22,407 nucleotides of DNA, taken from IMG/VR virus record IMGVR_UViG_3300048591_000297, positions 1-22,407 of that record, one strand, 5' to 3'. The stretch comes from a virus. Below the pieces are notes generated by a model, which ran no database searches, had not been told where the DNA came from, and worked only from the letters and a program-made list of their open reading frames with translations. Below, piece by piece: positions 3,049 through 18,232 of this stretch; position 1 is the stretch's first letter, and each line of letters starts with the position of its first letter. Made by a program: the position numbers and the translations under genes.

Positions 3049-3585
3049 TTACTTGGCAAAGAATTTAAGTGACCCGGTAAGGAACAGGTGGCGCTCACTC
3101 ATGCGCCTTACCTTTAAGCCTATCAGCTCTTTTCGCACTCCGTCTATAGTGGCCTTTGTCCACTTAGTAAACTCCTCAGCGGCTGCTGCAAAGTTTTCTT
3201 GGTTAATGAGCTTGAGCATTGTGCTGGTGCTAAAGTTGCCCTGCCCCACATTGTAAGCGAAAGAGGCCAGCGCGCCCACTTGGTCATCGGTCAGCTTGTT
3301 TGTTCTGAGCTTGTTCCTTACAATCGCCTCAAAGCGGCTCAAATCTTCTAACAGGTCAGCGGTGGCCTGCTCTATGGTTTTATTACCATAAATGCGCTCA
3401 GCCAGTGCTTTATTGGCGGCTCCCATTAAAGGCTTGTTGGTAGCCGGGTCAATAATCACACGGCCATAGCCACCTGTCCAGTAACCAGCCGGGCACAGCT
3501 TAGGTTGCAGGCCTACTTTTTTAAGGTTGCCATCGTGCAGGCTCTCATAGTGCTTTGCAAGGTTTATTGTGTTTTGTGTTATCAT
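3049..3585 (-). CDS. Endolysin: GH24 (T4-type) lysozyme
   Basis: A muramidase that would cleave peptidoglycan beta-1,4 glycosidic bonds at lysis. Residues visible from the chosen ATG: catalytic Glu14 in HYESLHDG, then CPAGYWTGGYG at 31-41 (the family's cPAG.wTiGYGh element, with Thr37 at the position of T4 Thr26 and Cys31 where T4 has Asp20), and QVGALASFAYNVGQGNFSTSTMLKL (102-126, split here only for reference), the conserved helical core. The usual GYGHT His is replaced by Arg (GYGR). There is no signal peptide, so a holin would be needed. I start at 3585, not at 3654, because the family begins just before the Glu helix, the longer frame overlaps the terminase end, and a palindrome copy sits directly before 3585. 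An endolysin between terminase and connector genes is an unusual place. Confidence 0.9.
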   Translation of the reverse strand: MITQNTINLAKHYESLHDGNLKKVGLQPKLCPAGYWTGGYGRVIIDPATNKPLMGAANKALAERIYGNKTIEQATADLLEDLSRFEAIVRNKLRTNKLTDDQVGALASFAYNVGQGNFSTSTMLKLINQENFAAAAEEFTKWTKATIDGVRKELIGLKVRRMSERHLFLTGSLKFFAK

Positions 3586-3601
3586 TTGAACGGTGTTTAA
3601 A
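3585..3601 (-). repeat. Dispersed palindrome copy, upstream of lysozyme gene
   Basis: The minus strand reads TTTAAACACCGTTCAAA; its last A is the A of the lysozyme ATG. It lies in the 19-base spacer after the terminase stop. Confidence 0.6.
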
Positions 3602-3604
3602 TGG

Positions 3605-5194
3605 TTAGTAAGCATTATCTCTTTCAACTGTTCCGAATACCGGTGAGAACTCACTCACCTTGTCCTTTCTGTTAAGCAGCCACACAGCGCCCTCCACTGC
3701 ATCCGGTGCATCATCATGCGCTTTGGCTCCCTGCTCAAAGGCAAGAAACTGCTCAATGCAGCGCTTTATATCATCGCTGTCCTTTTGCTTTTCGCTAAAC
3801 AGCACTACACCTCTCTCAAATAATGGTGAGAGGTTCTCAATGCGCGTGAACTTGTCAGGCTTTGCTCTCTTGTCTCCCCTTATAGCCAGCTGGTAGCCTC
3901 TGCTCTTTCCTTCAGTTTTAAACTCATCCAAAAACAAGTCCTGTATGTAGTTGGCCTCCATCCAAAAGTTGCAAATGATGTTGCTGTCTGTTTTTTGTAT
4001 GTGGTCATTGAGGTCGTACATATACTTAACAGCAGCACCTATGCTGCACTTGCGAACAAAGCAGGTGAGTATGTGGTATTGTGTAGTCTTTTTGCCTACC
4101 AGCACAATGGCTTTGTAGTCAGCAGTGGCAGTGGCTTTATAGCTTGGGTCAAAGTAGCAGAGCAAGTGGTCATACTCTTTCAGCGGCAATGGCTTGGTAA
4201 AATTGATGTGCTCGTTTTTAAACACCTTGCCCTCTATTACAGGCACGTTCATATACTCCCTCAGCCATGACCTCATTGTCTTATCCTCTTTCACTGCCTG
4301 CCAATACTCAGCGGTGTATTTTTCAGGCCACGCAGGCTGCATGTTATCATCTACAGCATTTACTTGCAGCATGTGCCAAAAGCCTTTTGCCTTGTAGGTA
4401 AATGCTCCGGGAGCTGTGACTTTTGAATAGAGCTTTTTGGCAGCAGTGGTGATGGCTCCCTTTAGTTTATCATCGCACAGCGTGCCTATAATACTGTGAG
4501 TAAACGGAGCATTGTTGACCACTACCAGCCGCTGGTTGCCTACATCAAAGCAGCCCATCAGGTCATCACAAACCCAATCGGTGCCCTTGCGCACACGCAT
4601 CTCATTGTTGCTCATTTCCTGTGTGTCCACATCATCTATCACTATGTAGTCAGGCCGCTGTGCTTCATTGCGCAACCCTCTTGGTGACTGTTGAAAGCCA
4701 AGAGCGAAAAACAGGCACCCGTCTTTTGTTTTAAAGTTGCCCTCCTCCCAAGTGCCATGACTGAACTGCTCACCAAAGTCAGTGATGTAGCGCTGGTTGC
4801 TCATCATTTGTGCTTGCAGGTCGCTCAGCAGCAGGCGTGCTTTGGTTTCGGTTTGCCCTACCAGTACCATAAACTTTAGCTCACCTTTTACCTTTAGCCA
4901 CATTGGCCATCCTATATCAGCGTGCACGCTCTTGGCTGCACCACGAAACCACTTGAGTAATAGCCTGATGATTTTGTGCTTAGCTAAGAGGCTGGCAATA
5001 AACACATGAAACCAGCTGCACTTGCTGGTAGCATACATGGGCAGGTAGTGCTCAAAGAAAAAGGCATAGTCTTTCTTGGCTCTTTCAATGCGTGCATACT
5101 TTACAGACATATCCTCATCAGCAGCCACCGGAGTAGCCTGCATGATTTTTCGCATGTTAAGCTCAAAGTCTTTTTGTGAGAGTTTGCTGGCCAT
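3605..5194 (-). CDS. terL: Terminase large subunit (TerL)
   Basis: A 529-residue ATP-driven DNA packaging motor and headful/cos nuclease. The ATPase half has a Walker A-like RGAAKSVH at about 84-91 and a Walker B YIVIDDVD at 183-190. The nuclease half shows the RNase H-fold acidic residues: Asp349 in CYFDPSYK, Glu413 in FWMEANYI, and the HDDAPDAVEGAVWLL motif at 493-507. Length is normal for the family. It begins 2 bases after the TerS stop and precedes the lysozyme gene. Cytoplasmic, docking on the portal encoded further along the same operon. The first Walker A Gly-x-Gly is GAA, an accepted variant in phage terminases. Confidence 0.95.
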   Translation of the reverse strand: MASKLSQKDFELNMRKIMQATPVAADEDMSVKYARIERAKKDYAFFFEHYLPMYATSKCSWFHVFIASLLAKHKIIRLLLKWFRGAAKSVHADIGWPMWLKVKGELKFMVLVGQTETKARLLLSDLQAQMMSNQRYITDFGEQFSHGTWEEGNFKTKDGCLFFALGFQQSPRGLRNEAQRPDYIVIDDVDTQEMSNNEMRVRKGTDWVCDDLMGCFDVGNQRLVVVNNAPFTHSIIGTLCDDKLKGAITTAAKKLYSKVTAPGAFTYKAKGFWHMLQVNAVDDNMQPAWPEKYTAEYWQAVKEDKTMRSWLREYMNVPVIEGKVFKNEHINFTKPLPLKEYDHLLCYFDPSYKATATADYKAIVLVGKKTTQYHILTCFVRKCSIGAAVKYMYDLNDHIQKTDSNIICNFWMEANYIQDLFLDEFKTEGKSRGYQLAIRGDKRAKPDKFTRIENLSPLFERGVVLFSEKQKDSDDIKRCIEQFLAFEQGAKAHDDAPDAVEGAVWLLNRKDKVSEFSPVFGTVERDNAY

Positions 5195-5865: not shown

Positions 5866-6819
5866 ATGCCAGTAAAAAAGAAGTTTATCCTGAGTGACGA
5901 AAGCGTGAATAGCTATGGCTTTCGCGTGCTTACCTCAGGCATTGACATTACACAGTTTAAGGCCAACCCGGTGATGTTGCTTAACCATGATGAGGATGAT
6001 GTGCCCGGCAACTGGCAGGAGGTGAACATAGAGGATGGTAAGCTGGTAGCAGTAACCAACTTTGATGAGAAAGACCCTGAGGCCATGAAGCTGGCCAGCA
6101 AAGTAGAGCGGGGTTTTGTAAATGGTGCCTCTATAGGTTTTCAAATTTTGGAAACCAGCAATGACCCACAACTGATGTTGCCCGGTCAAACACGCCCCAC
6201 TGTTACTAAGTGTAAACTTTATGAGGCCTCTATATGCCCACTGCCAAGCAACTCAAATGCGCTGGCATTGTATGACACCACCGGCAAAAAGCTGAGCATG
6301 ACTGATGAGGTGCTCAACACATTCAAATTGTCACTAATACAATCCCAACATAAAACTGAGACCATGAAACTCAACCTTAAAAATTTACAGGCGCTTAACC
6401 TGCAAGAGAGCGCAACAGAGGCAGACATCAATGCAGCCCTTGAAACCCGTTTAAAGCAGGCCGCTGATGATGCTGCTGAGTTAAAGCAGTTGAAAGAGGC
6501 AGCTGCTGCCAAGCTGAAAGCCGATGCCAAGCAAGTGGTGGCTGATGCAGTAAAAGACAAAAAGCTGACAGCGGAGCAGGCTCCTGAGTGGGAGGCACTG
6601 GCTGAGCAGAATTTGGAGGCAGCTAAAAAGGCGCTCAGCTCTATGCCCGGAGTAAAGCCTATCAATACACAGTTGAAGGACGGAGAGGTGAAAACAGATG
6701 GTGTTGACCGCACTAACTGGAAGCTGAGCGACTGGAGAAAGAATGACTCAGAAGGCCTTGCCAAGTTAAAAGTGGACAGCCCTGAGAAGTATAAGGCATT
6801 GGTGGACGAAAACAAGTAA
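5866..6819 (+). CDS. Prohead protease (S78 type) fused to scaffold domain
   Basis: A 317-residue maturation protease that would trim head proteins inside the procapsid. Residues 1-145 fit the HK97-type S78 family: catalytic His41 in MLLNHDEDD, catalytic Ser89 in NGASIGF, and the closing LYEASICPLPSNSNALAL (118-135) strand. Residues 165-260 are Ala/Lys/Glu-rich and strongly helical (RLKQAADDAAELKQLKEAA), as expected for an internal scaffold. The last 45 residues are polar and may bind the capsid protein. This is the protease-scaffold layout of Mu gpI/Z and lambda C/Nu3. It is the first gene of the plus-strand operon. Confidence 0.88.
   Translation: MPVKKKFILSDESVNSYGFRVLTSGIDITQFKANPVMLLNHDEDDVPGNWQEVNIEDGKLVAVTNFDEKDPEAMKLASKVERGFVNGASIGFQILETSNDPQLMLPGQTRPTVTKCKLYEASICPLPSNSNALALYDTTGKKLSMTDEVLNTFKLSLIQSQHKTETMKLNLKNLQALNLQESATEADINAALETRLKQAADDAAELKQLKEAAAAKLKADAKQVVADAVKDKKLTAEQAPEWEALAEQNLEAAKKALSSMPGVKPINTQLKDGEVKTDGVDRTNWKLSDWRKNDSEGLAKLKVDSPEKYKALVDENK
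6364..6819 (+). CDS. Possible separate scaffold from internal in-frame start
   Basis: Met167 of the protease gene starts the helical scaffold half (MKLNLKNLQALNLQES), just after the protease domain and a short linker. The preceding bases (AACATAAAACTGAGACC) are A-rich like the other starts in this window. Mu and lambda make their scaffold from such internal starts. Expression from this ATG is inferred, not shown. Confidence 0.4.
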   Translation: MKLNLKNLQALNLQESATEADINAALETRLKQAADDAAELKQLKEAAAAKLKADAKQVVADAVKDKKLTAEQAPEWEALAEQNLEAAKKALSSMPGVKPINTQLKDGEVKTDGVDRTNWKLSDWRKNDSEGLAKLKVDSPEKYKALVDENK

Positions 6820-6874: not shown

Positions 6875-7930
6875 ATGAAAACCATTTTCAATTTAGTAGT
6901 GACCCTCTTGATGGTGTCCTTTATTTCTGCCCCACTGGCAGCGCAACACAATTTTGACACCTCCACCACTACTGTGGTGTTGTTTGGTGCCCTCACTGCC
7001 ATAGGCTTTGCATCGTATGGTGTAGGCTTGCCCGGTATTACCTCAGCTGACTTAGCAAAACAGATATGGATAAGACAGCTGATGGAAAAGTTTTATGCTG
7101 AGAGTGGCCACTTAATGCGCTCACAGGATATGACTCAGTTTGTGGACTACAATACTATAAACCTTGGCGATGCCGGAGCAGACCCTGAGGTGCTTATAGA
7201 TAACAGCACATACCCTATCCCTGTGGAGGAAAGAGAGGACAGCCCGCTGGAAATTCCTTTGAGCCGTTTCCGTACCAAAAACACAGTCATCCGCGATGCA
7301 GAGAGTGTGGAGCTTTCATACGATAAAATGGAGAGCGTTATCAGAGGCCACAGAAACTCTTTGATTGAAACAACAGCTGCCAAGGCAACACACGCATGGG
7401 CACCAGCTGCTGACGGCTCTTATACTCCGGTAATACAGACCACCGGCTCTGCCAGCGATTTTGAAACAAGCCGCAAGGCCATCACTATTGCTGACATTGC
7501 CAATGCAAAGCGCAAACTGGATTTGTTGAAGGTGCCGCAAAATGGCCGCATCCTTGTGTTGCACCCTACCCATCAGGGAGACCTGTTGAAAGCAGACAGT
7601 GCCCTGCAAAAAGCATTTGCCAACCTTAAAACGGGTGAGATTTATACCCTGTTCGGCTTCGCTATTTATGTGAGCACGCTTACTGCTGTGTATAACAAAA
7701 ACACAGGCGCTAAGGTGGCTTACGGTGCAGCTGCTGCACCAAGCACCGACTCCGTTTCTTCCCTGTTTTACCATGAGGCTGAGGTGATGCGTGCTGATGG
7801 TGATGTAAAGATGTTTGCCCGGTTAAATGACCCTGAGGCTGACGGTGACATCATTGGCTTTAGCAAGCGCTTTATCGGTTTGCCAATTCGTAACAAATAC
7901 CAAGGCTCTATCATTAGTGCTGCCAGCTAA
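6875..7930 (+). CDS. Major capsid protein with N-terminal signal-peptide-like segment
   Basis: A 351-residue protein in the major-capsid slot, directly after protease-scaffold. From about residue 55 it resembles HK97-fold capsid proteins: an N-arm (ADLAKQIWIRQLMEKFY), a P-domain-like stretch (IRDAESVELSYDKMESVIRGH), an A-domain with RILVLHPTHQGDLLKADSA, and the closing DPEADGDIIGFSKRFIGLPI. Oddly the first 24 residues are a textbook Sec signal, MKTIFNLVVTLLMVSFISAP then LAAQ, followed by a second hydrophobic run (VVLFGALTAIGFASYGVGLPG, about 34-54). The A-rich leader before the ATG (ACACAACCCAAATACAACC) supports this start; no later Met before residue 70 is available. The hydrophobic arm could be a propeptide removed by the prohead protease. 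Confidence 0.8.
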   Translation: MKTIFNLVVTLLMVSFISAPLAAQHNFDTSTTTVVLFGALTAIGFASYGVGLPGITSADLAKQIWIRQLMEKFYAESGHLMRSQDMTQFVDYNTINLGDAGADPEVLIDNSTYPIPVEEREDSPLEIPLSRFRTKNTVIRDAESVELSYDKMESVIRGHRNSLIETTAAKATHAWAPAADGSYTPVIQTTGSASDFETSRKAITIADIANAKRKLDLLKVPQNGRILVLHPTHQGDLLKADSALQKAFANLKTGEIYTLFGFAIYVSTLTAVYNKNTGAKVAYGAAAAPSTDSVSSLFYHEAEVMRADGDVKMFARLNDPEADGDIIGFSKRFIGLPIRNKYQGSIISAAS

Positions 7931-8023: not shown

Positions 8024-8782
8024 ATGAAAAAGATTTTTGCCATTGCCACCTTGCTAAGCCTTACGGTGGCATCATTTGCACAGAGTAACGCTTACTGGTA
8101 CGGAAAGCCATCAAAGAAAGCACAGCTCACACAGTATGCTATTACTGAGAATGAGTCTTATATGTTCCCCACCTACGATGCTCAGGAAAAGAACTATGAC
8201 AATGACACCATCACTGTTACTGTAACGCAGTATGAAACAGCTGTGGATATTGACAGCATCAGTGCCACATCATGGGTGTTGCTTTCTCCTTCCAGTGCTG
8301 TGCTGGCCGGTGCCAAATTGTTTTTGCATTTAGTGACCACAGGAGACAATCAGGTGGTATATGTAAAGCAGGGCAGCACGGTGCTTGACACACTTAATGT
8401 GGGTAGCATTGCTGATGTTGTTTACTACCATAACGGGAGCAACTTTACAAGAGTGCAGAGCACTACATGGCCGTATTTTAAAGCCGATGTAACACAGGGC
8501 ACTAACATAAGCACAGCAGTAACAGCCAATGGTGATGCCGGTGTAATAACTACAGTAAGCAGCAACCTTGCTATAGATAGCAGTGCCAGCTTTACGGTAA
8601 ACAACAGCTTTGTAAAGGCTGGCAGTGTGATATTGCTTACAACGGAATATACCGGCAATGGTAGTCCTGTGCCGAGTGTGTATAGTGCTACTGCTGGCAG
8701 CTTTGTGCTCAAGTTTAAAAACCTTGGCAATGCAGCGCTAACCGGTGCAGTTAAGTTTCACTACCTCGTTTTAAACCGATAA
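8024..8782 (+). CDS. Exported beta-rich protein in head-decoration position
   Basis: A 252-residue protein with a clear Sec signal peptide (MKKIFAIATLLSLTVASFAQ, cleavage after SFA). The mature part is rich in Ser, Thr, Val and Gly and predicted beta. Its last 80 residues (VITTVSSNLAIDSSASFTVN ... GSFVLKFKNLGNAALTG) follow the pattern of a small beta domain found in virion decoration, head-fibre and tail-fibre proteins, in which an 'aGtITT.s' strand opens and 'F.....N...AlnG..k..y.v' closes. Sitting between capsid and tail genes suggests a capsid decoration or head fibre. The signal peptide would be odd for a virion part; a secreted or surface-displayed protein is the alternative. Confidence 0.5.
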   Translation: MKKIFAIATLLSLTVASFAQSNAYWYGKPSKKAQLTQYAITENESYMFPTYDAQEKNYDNDTITVTVTQYETAVDIDSISATSWVLLSPSSAVLAGAKLFLHLVTTGDNQVVYVKQGSTVLDTLNVGSIADVVYYHNGSNFTRVQSTTWPYFKADVTQGTNISTAVTANGDAGVITTVSSNLAIDSSASFTVNNSFVKAGSVILLTTEYTGNGSPVPSVYSATAGSFVLKFKNLGNAALTGAVKFHYLVLNR

Positions 8783-8792
8783 AAACCCGGAA

Positions 8793-8834
8793 AGAGCAGG
8801 CGGTGGGTGTTCGTCATGTTTCGCCCGCTGCTCT
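8793..8834 (+). other. Intergenic stem-loop before the coiled-coil membrane protein gene
   Basis: AGAGCA-g-GCGG at 8793-8803 pairs with CCGCTGCTCT at 8825-8834, giving a 10-bp stem with one bulged G and a loop of about 21 bases. It ends 16 bases before the ATG at 8851. It may tune transcription or translation of the lysis-like genes. No T-run follows. Confidence 0.35.
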
Positions 8835-8850
8835 GCTCACTGTTTTAGGT

Positions 8851-9120
8851 ATGGAGATAAAGGATGTCATTGAGATACTGATAGTTATTGTTGGAGGTAT
8901 CGCTGCTTATTTCAGACTGGAAAACTCAGTAAACGTGCAAGCGGAAAAACTTATAGGTCACATAAAGCAACATGAGGAGCTGAGTGACCGGGTGAGTAAG
9001 CATGAGGAGAAACTGGACAGTGAGCTGAAAGCAATACATGGCAAGATTGAAAGCAACCATAAAGAAATCACAGACAAACTTTCAGACATAAAAGTGCTCA
9101 TAGAGCAAATAAGAAAATGA
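8851..9120 (+). CDS. Small membrane-anchored coiled-coil protein (XhlA/holin-like)
   Basis: An 89-residue protein with one N-terminal membrane helix (EILIVIVGGIAAYF, about 8-21) and a long heptad-bearing cytoplasmic or periplasmic helix (HEELSDRVSKHEEKLDSELKA and on to the end). The shape resembles XhlA-type or single-TM holin accessory proteins. I start at ATG 8851, since the upstream GTG at 8803 lies within a stem-loop. Its stop overlaps the next start (ATGA), and that next gene looks like a spanin, which suggests a lysis pair. The function is inferred from shape and neighbour only. Confidence 0.5.
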   Translation: MEIKDVIEILIVIVGGIAAYFRLENSVNVQAEKLIGHIKQHEELSDRVSKHEEKLDSELKAIHGKIESNHKEITDKLSDIKVLIEQIRK

Positions 9121-9683
9121 GACCATACAACGTCTATAAAATAATTGTTGCAGCCTGTGTATGGGTAGCGCTTGCCTTAATGGTGGCGCTGTGTGGATGC
9201 AGCAATGTATTACAAAGCAGCCTTACACAGCAGCACACCAGCAGCGAAAAAGACAGCACACATACAGCTGTTCGATTGCGCATAGACACTGTGATTGTGC
9301 CCGGTGATAGCGTTTACATTGATGTGCCGGTGCCGGTAAAGTGCCCCAACAATGATGTGCCTATTTTCTTTGACCAAGAGGTGCAAACAGATGGCCAGCG
9401 CAATACTGTAAAGCTAAAGTTTAAGGCTGGCAAGGTGGTGGTGGATAGCCGCTGCAAAGAGCTGGAGCTACAGGTGTACTTGCTGGACAGTGTTAGTAAA
9501 CAATACAAGAGCAAGGCAGACAGTTTTGTCAGTGTTCGGCAAGAAGTAAAACAGGTGCGCTACATACCCGGTGCCTACAAGTGGGCAATGGGTTTTACTG
9601 TGTCTTTTTTCATTCTACTTATTCTATTCATCGCATACAAAATATTCAAACTAACGCCCTATGGTAAAGTCATCCCTTTCTAA
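9117..9683 (+). CDS. Lipoprotein with C-terminal membrane helix: candidate unimolecular spanin
   Basis: A 188-residue protein. The N-terminus is a lipoprotein signal: hydrophobic run, then LCGC with Cys28 as the likely lipidated residue. A periplasmic segment of about 125 residues follows, largely beta (DTVIVPGDSVYIDVPVPVKC; NTVKLKFKAGKVVVDS) with a helical end (LQVYLLDSVSKQYKSKADSF). Residues 156-178 form a strong membrane helix (WAMGFTVSFFILLILFIAYK) with a short basic tail. Lipid anchor in the outer membrane plus an inner-membrane C-terminal helix is the topology of u-spanins such as T1 gp11, which fuse the two membranes at lysis. It overlaps the upstream holin-like gene by 4 bases. No sequence homology is claimed. 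Confidence 0.5.
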   Translation: MRPYNVYKIIVAACVWVALALMVALCGCSNVLQSSLTQQHTSSEKDSTHTAVRLRIDTVIVPGDSVYIDVPVPVKCPNNDVPIFFDQEVQTDGQRNTVKLKFKAGKVVVDSRCKELELQVYLLDSVSKQYKSKADSFVSVRQEVKQVRYIPGAYKWAMGFTVSFFILLILFIAYKIFKLTPYGKVIPF

Positions 9684-10065
9684 AGAAAAAGCAGTACAAC
9701 TAAGTGCTGCTGTAGTGGAGTGCTTTGAAACGCACCCAAATGAGAAAACAGTGCATGTGGTAACCGATGGCACTGTGTTTTTAAATGCCAGTAAAAACGC
9801 TGCCATAAACCATGCCCGGAGCATTAAGGGTGAAGTGGTAACAGTAAACAAAGGCGACAAACTGCCTTTTGATGAGATGGCTGAGGCTGCTGCTGCAACT
9901 GAGGAGCCTGCTGTAACTGAGGAGCCTGTTGCAACTGAGGAGCCTGCTGTAACTGAGGAGCCTGCTGCAACTGAGGAGCCTGTTGTAACTGAGGAGCCTG
10001 CTATAACTGAGGAGCCTGCTTCTAAAGGCAAAAGCAGTAAGGTTAAAAAGGACAAAAAGAAGTAG
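9661..10065 (+). CDS. Unrecognised small protein with TEEP hexapeptide repeats
   Basis: A 134-residue protein overlapping the end of the spanin-like gene by 23 bases. Residues 1-75 form a compact alpha/beta-looking domain (VHVVTDGTVFLNASKNAAIN, then HARSIKGEVVTV). Residues 80-121 are seven acidic hexapeptides, TEEPxx (x mostly Ala/Val), and the end is a very basic tail, KGKSSKVKKDKKK. I do not recognise a family. It lies where head-tail joining proteins are expected, just before the sheath gene, and may be a connector or a small virion protein, but nothing in the sequence proves this. Confidence 0.6.
   Translation: MVKSSLSKEKAVQLSAAVVECFETHPNEKTVHVVTDGTVFLNASKNAAINHARSIKGEVVTVNKGDKLPFDEMAEAAAATEEPAVTEEPVATEEPAVTEEPAATEEPVVTEEPAITEEPASKGKSSKVKKDKKK
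9898..10023 (+). repeat. Seven tandem 18-bp repeats (TEEPxx)
   Basis: Each unit is ACTGAGGAGCCT plus six variable bases (GCTGTA, GTTGCA, GCTGCA, GTTGTA, GCTATA and similar). The 12-base core is identical in all seven copies. Repeat number could change by slippage without breaking the frame. Confidence 0.9.
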
Positions 10066-10094
10066 TCAATCACCCATAAAAAACGAAAGCAGAC

Positions 10095-17041: not shown

Positions 17042-18232
<1,191 letters not shown>

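Follow-up and report, generated by a model that had tools for sequence, protein, structure and literature searches.

A predicted two-helix membrane hairpin precedes the HK97-type capsid core in a Mu-like myophage and in about half of its relatives

Membrane-associated assembly of proheads is textbook knowledge only for phage T4. There, a membrane scaffold protein interacting with the portal (connector) is involved and not an anchored major capsid protein (MCP), and according to a review from 2011 T4 was the only phage whose proheads had been demonstrated to associate with the membrane (PMC3185693); the inner membrane as the site of prohead assembly is what the mode proposed below would have in common with T4. 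Filamentous phages possess with pVIII a coat protein with a transmembrane helix, the leader of which is removed in some phages (PMC3185693), although its fold is unrelated and assembly is of the extrusion type. HK97 and T5, on the other hand, carry N-terminal to the capsid fold the delta domain, a soluble, charged helical scaffold proposed to form a helix-loop-helix (PMC3185693), with the prohead protease gene adjacent. For the MCPs of Porphyromonas gingivalis Nixviridae, which like the protein described here possess an N-terminal hydrophobic signal-like segment and belong to phages of a Bacteroidota host, signal peptides have been reported and cleavage by the prohead protease has been suggested (PMC10367356). 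The example MCP of phage019a differs, as it is 668 aa long, does not match PHROG 267 and shows, in place of a two-helix hairpin, a single short hydrophobic run after which a charged helical region begins.

Closest are the Winoviridae/PHROG 267 MCPs (Peternella_1, lotta8/pippi8, FPSV) of Bacteroidota transposable (Mu-like) myophages and relatives, several of which carry the same kind of module as the MCP described here. Peternella_1 (PMC8776804) and lotta8/pippi8 (PMC7077304) are isolated, plaque-forming phages with ordinary myovirus heads as seen by electron microscopy. A signal peptide is not mentioned in the main text of the Peternella_1 paper (PMC8776804), the passages found of the pippi8 paper (PMC7077304) describe no N-terminal module, and a literature search, largely among papers outside subscription, gave nothing direct on hydrophobic or membrane propeptides of HK97 MCPs.

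The window, the entire 22.4 kb (22,407 nucleotides) of the virus record IMGVR_UViG_3300048591_000297, contains a Mu-like myophage structural block (Portal_Mu, Phage_Mu_Gp36, Peptidase_S78 protease, DUF2586 sheath). With a Mu-type portal, gp36, a DUF2586 sheath, a related MCP core and a protease/scaffold gene directly upstream of it, the fragment shares these features with the Winoviridae/Mu-like Bacteroidota myophages (Table 1). The sequence-only reading had assigned the gene to a capsid protein, in agreement with the profile match to the PHROG 267 major head protein (E 5.9e-21, residues 58-341 aligned) and with the predicted HK97 fold. The AlphaFold2 model, calculated from an alignment of 79 homologues with the phage-collection records left out, has a mean pLDDT of 86.9 and a high-confidence HK97-type core from residue 57, with the hydrophobic arm in front. 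By Foldseek (9jwb, E 8e-13) and VIA-align (Z 13.6 to HK97 Head II, 14.9 to the P22 procapsid) the predicted fold resembles the capsids of cyanophage A4, T7, P22 and HK97, and the MCP profile retrieves solved capsids by sequence as well (9jwb, E 4e-18). The window MCP is a variant within the HK97-type capsids, with partial prior art.

Table 1. Coordinates of the MCP gene, its N-terminal features and the upstream protease gene in the window.
Feature	Position	Strand	Basis
Prohead protease fused to scaffold-like C-terminal part, directly upstream of MCP	5866..6819	+	Peptidase_S78 E 6e-11, Mu-like_Pro E 2e-4
MCP gene, 351 aa, translation opening MKTIFNLVVTLLMVSFISAPLAAQHNFDTSTTTVVLFGALTAIGFASYGVGLPGITSADLAKQIW	6875..7930	+	PHROG 267; predicted HK97 fold
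N-terminal hydrophobic hairpin module (putative), residues 1-58	6875..7048	+	Homologous modules in 50/113 unique MCPs; two predicted helices
First hydrophobic helix core, residues 7-23 (17 residues)	6893..6943	+	KD17 mean 2.26; predicted helix 2-24
LAA|Q, residues 21-24, signal-peptidase-like, Bacteroidota Q-rule-like	6935..6946	+	Sequence; without conservation in homologues
Predicted periplasmic loop, residues 24-32, no K/R	6944..6970	+	1 K/R in 269 loop residues, 47 modules
Second hydrophobic helix core, residues 33-46	6971..7012	+	KD14 mean 2.09; predicted helix 33-49
Junction motif LPGITSA|DLAKQIW, proposed prohead-protease site between residues 58/59	7028..7069	+	Position-specific conservation in homologues
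HK97-fold core, residues 59-351	7049..7927	+	Homologue alignment and predicted structure

In front of the core, sequence and Kyte-Doolittle hydropathy bear out the description given before, namely a positively charged start, a hydrophobic core, LAAQ and a second hydrophobic run, and the end assigned to this region, 7046, lies within two bases of the module/core boundary. The basic n-region consists of a single Lys (K2), followed by the hydrophobic h-region at residues 7-23. AlphaFold2 models residues 1-56 as two helices (2-24, 33-49) with a confidence lower than that of the core and modest throughout the hairpin (block means about 58-77).

Scans of a virus collection, a genome collection and phage records delivered 113 unique MCPs. 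In 63 of them the protein begins with the core, the Met occupying position -1 or -2 relative to an (A/G)(I/V/L)xxE(I/V)W motif, and 50 possess a module of 38-65 aa in front of the core. The MCPs of Peternella_1 and of the lotta8/pippi8 group carry the module. Three module-bearing sequences (L112, L006 and L125), broken or truncated at the contig end, were excluded from later counts, leaving 47 modules. The maximum Kyte-Doolittle value over 15 residues is on average 2.40 in the modules; for module-less MCPs, taken over their first 60 residues, it averages 0.71 and reaches at most 1.45. As a comparable hydrophobic stretch within the first 60 residues is present in all intact module-bearing homologues and in none of the 63 module-less ones, the module of the window is not a chance feature. 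A hold-out of 395 evenly drawn genomes of the same phylum (Bacteroidota) provided five more MCPs aligned through the core start, two with and three without the hairpin. The MCP of Hankyphage is a distant, module-less relative, and a scan with the FPSV-S27 MCP as query gave no matches.

Positively charged flanks of membrane helices lie in the cytoplasm according to the positive-inside rule. Over the 47 modules, which display two hydrophobic helices with positive-inside flanks as expected for a two-helix membrane hairpin, K/R account for 101 of 301 residues in the N-flank, 4 of 799 in helix 1, one of 269 in the loop, none of 658 in helix 2 and 54 of 765 in the C-flank. Positive charges before and after the helices and almost none between them would place both ends of the module in the cytoplasm. 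A helical hairpin in front of the core is also predicted by AlphaFold for a distant homologue (L097), and an F-N pair recurs early in helix 1 in 19 of 36 non-redundant modules versus 1.3 in shuffles. That helix 2 is only moderately hydrophobic in 9/47 modules (KD14 below 1.6) counts against a hairpin. A two-helix membrane hairpin with both ends cytoplasmic is nevertheless well supported by sequence statistics and structural models. With its positive-inside flanks, the second transmembrane-like helix would bring the chain back across the membrane, so that the capsid core would lie in the cytoplasm, a location supported by the charge pattern.

A plain Sec export signal, which the sequence-only reading had seen at the start of the gene, is, judged by these patterns, not the best reading of the module. 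While the first helix does look like a Bacteroidota Q-rule signal peptide, a second helix (33-49) with positive-inside flanks follows in place of a single mature part released to the periplasm, and the LAA|Q site is peculiar to the window. AxA sites are not enriched in the modules (14/36 versus 10.1 in shuffled modules, p 0.10) and a Q after an AxA-type site is no commoner than in shuffles, so that a conserved signal-peptidase site was rejected. What can be retained of a signal peptide is a composite in which host signal peptidase I would cut helix 1, as a genuine Sec signal peptide, at LAA|Q, and helix 2 would serve as a stop-transfer anchor; the core would remain in the cytoplasm, held by one helix, and a pyroglutamate N-terminus would lie in the periplasm. 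LAA|Q, with L at -3 and proline at -4, is compatible with the Bacteroidota Q-rule (PMC5837995), two more genes of the window (8024, 17042) open with Q-rule-like signal peptides and the second hydrophobic run is strong enough for stop transfer (KD14 2.09). Against this composite, the site is not conserved and the predicted helix 2-24 runs through LAA|Q unbroken, which makes it unlikely; even with a cut at this position, helix 2 would hold the core in the cytoplasm.

The boundary between module and core is conserved. Among the 47 modules, G is found at -5 in 35, L/A/F at -3 in 38, M/E/A at -1 in 41 and A/G at +1 in 45, followed by [VIL]xxE[IV]W at the core start. The window junction fits at -5 (G54) and -1 (A58), but departs at -3 (Thr) and +1 (Asp). 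A cut at this junction would leave nearly the N-terminus which module-less MCPs possess after Met removal. With the S78 protease gene immediately upstream, the conserved junction makes removal of the module by the prohead protease the economical inference.

Two helices, positive-inside flanks, a conserved junction and a protease gene upstream speak for both the hydrophobic propeptide and the membrane anchor which had been considered as alternatives to a signal peptide, and these two are probably the same thing. That about half of the relatives carry the hairpin suggests phage heads that are built on the membrane and from which the hairpin is then cut off. The module is probably a removable anchor by which the MCP is collected at the inner membrane, where proheads would be assembled. 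The first ~50 residues would enter the inner membrane as a pair of transmembrane helices with the N-terminus in, a short loop out and the C-terminus in, while the capsid core would stay in the cytoplasm tethered to the membrane. Tethering would concentrate the MCP and nucleate prohead assembly on the membrane, until the phage's own prohead protease cuts around residue 58/59 and the prohead is released. Points that count against this model are that neither an experimental localisation nor a mature N-terminus turned up for any member, that the hairpin is modelled with modest confidence, that no compensating anchor has been identified in the module-less half of the family and that the proposed cleavage motif is derived from conservation and is departed from by the window at two positions. 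Moreover, HK97-like proheads have the N-terminus on the inner face of their shell; an N-terminal anchor would bring the membrane to the concave face, an awkward geometry. A bolder version is put forward only tentatively, as more doubtful than probable: a broad group of tailed Bacteroidota phages might build HK97-type proheads on the inner membrane through a hairpin on every MCP subunit, later cut by the prohead protease. Given the inward orientation of the N-terminus in known proheads, a piece of membrane might even become enclosed by the forming shell and be expelled before DNA packaging. If true, an MCP with its own removable membrane anchor would represent a route different from T4 and directly testable. 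A comparison lends itself readily, since closely related natural phages exist in both states, some of them as plaque-forming isolates. The finding also corrects a likely annotation error, namely to call such MCPs secreted or to trim their starts.

Alternatively, the hairpin might stay out of the membrane altogether and lie within the prohead as a shortened, hydrophobic version of the HK97 delta domain until the protease removes it. Such a hairpin would equally lie N-terminal to the HK97 fold, adopt the helix-loop-helix proposed for the HK97/T5 delta domains (PMC3185693) and have the protease gene adjacent. In contrast to the soluble, charged helices of such a scaffold, the helices of the module are hydrophobic and nearly free of charge with a strong positive-inside bias in membrane-type flanks, half of the family does without the module, and a separate scaffold-like tail, unchanged in length in both classes, is present on the protease. 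An internal hydrophobic scaffold is accordingly judged quite improbable.

Export proper, in which a real secretory signal sends some or all of the capsid protein to the periplasm or the cell surface, could invoke the signal-peptide-like helix 1 with LAA|Q and the Q-rule signal peptides encoded by other Bacteroidota phages (PMC10367356), but is given very little credence, since export would be halted by the second hydrophobic run with its positive-inside flanks, virions require cytoplasmic MCP alongside terminase and genome, and homologues are without the LAA|Q site.

The start codon of the module-bearing genes is real. Most close unsaturated pairs give Ka/Ks values of about 0.07-0.3 for the module and 0.03-0.15 for the core; values well below 1 show, from the substitution pattern, that the module is translated and constrained by purifying selection, though evolving faster than the core. 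In these genomes an A-rich stretch precedes start codons. When the 20 nt upstream are compared with the locus they belong to, A is in excess by +0.280 before the outer ATG of module-bearing genes (n=47) and by +0.273 before module-less starts (n=63), versus -0.094 before an internal Met kept at -1 (n=21), and the spacing from the protease stop to the outer ATG is a normal intergenic distance (median 46 nt). The upstream region of the outer ATG in the window is 55% A. A dual start giving a long and a short MCP was rejected, as the Met at -1 in 21 modules is without initiation-like upstream sequence. A wrong start, with translation from inside near residue 52-59 and an untranslated upstream frame, which had been raised for this gene and to which the 63/113 homologues beginning at the core and the in-frame Met at -1 in 21 module-bearing homologues might point, has next to no probability given the module in 50/113 homologues under purifying selection, the A-rich outer and A-poor inner contexts and, in the window, a lone inner TTG at residue 52 with A-poor upstream DNA and no inner ATG near the core. 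The expectation that homologues starting near residue 55-70 without the arm would speak against the module is split accordingly: 63/113 do start there, while 50/113 carry the arm.

The module was gained or lost repeatedly. A quick IQ-TREE phylogeny of the core with 110 rows, in which several long branches make details unsure, requires at least 11 changes between presence and absence of the module. Well-supported branches force five of these changes, and loss has occurred, as a module-less MCP (L131) lies inside a module-bearing clade. The window falls into a mixed-state group of 11 rows, where the nearest rows by path are module-less. In one comparison (L024/L025 versus L028, about 3848-4963), the MCP cores are 99-100% identical (pS 0.05), but the modules only 83% (pS 0.27), a pattern suggestive of a recombination joint close to where module and core meet.

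Neither the scaffold nor the holin seems to be substituted by the module. A protease/scaffold gene lies upstream in nearly every locus examined, module-bearing and module-less, with median lengths of 331 and 357 aa in the two classes (p 0.13), so that a hairpin in place of the scaffold was rejected. Small membrane ORFs within 2.5 kb downstream of the MCP were counted in 34/41 module-bearing versus 19/49 module-less loci, a crude count uncorrected for kinship; a hairpin in place of the holin was rejected because module-bearing loci have more, not fewer, of these ORFs.

Several neighbouring genes of the window deserve mention. The gene after the MCP (8024-8782) starts with its Q-rule-like signal peptide (MKKIFAIATLLSLTVASFA|QSN), and varied phage proteins share its C-terminal ~110 residues (PHROG 18251) at their own C-terminus; one of these proteins (L145) opens with a fibre-like KISQLP domain. 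At 17042-18232, a collagen-repeat, tail-fibre-like protein is encoded whose Q-rule-like signal peptide directly precedes a KLSELP fibre-type domain; homologue searches gave no convincing relatives for its N-terminal part. An endolysin is encoded on the minus strand beside the terminase (3049-3654), and in many relatives the endolysin directly follows the MCP. The product of 9117-9683 is a probable lipoprotein (lipobox-like ALCGC) with a C-terminal transmembrane run and adjoins a small holin-like ORF (8803-9120), the two possibly representing spanin and holin. The ORF at 9661-10065 contains tandem EEPA(V/A)T repeats, and the opposite strand is open throughout (9651-10073).
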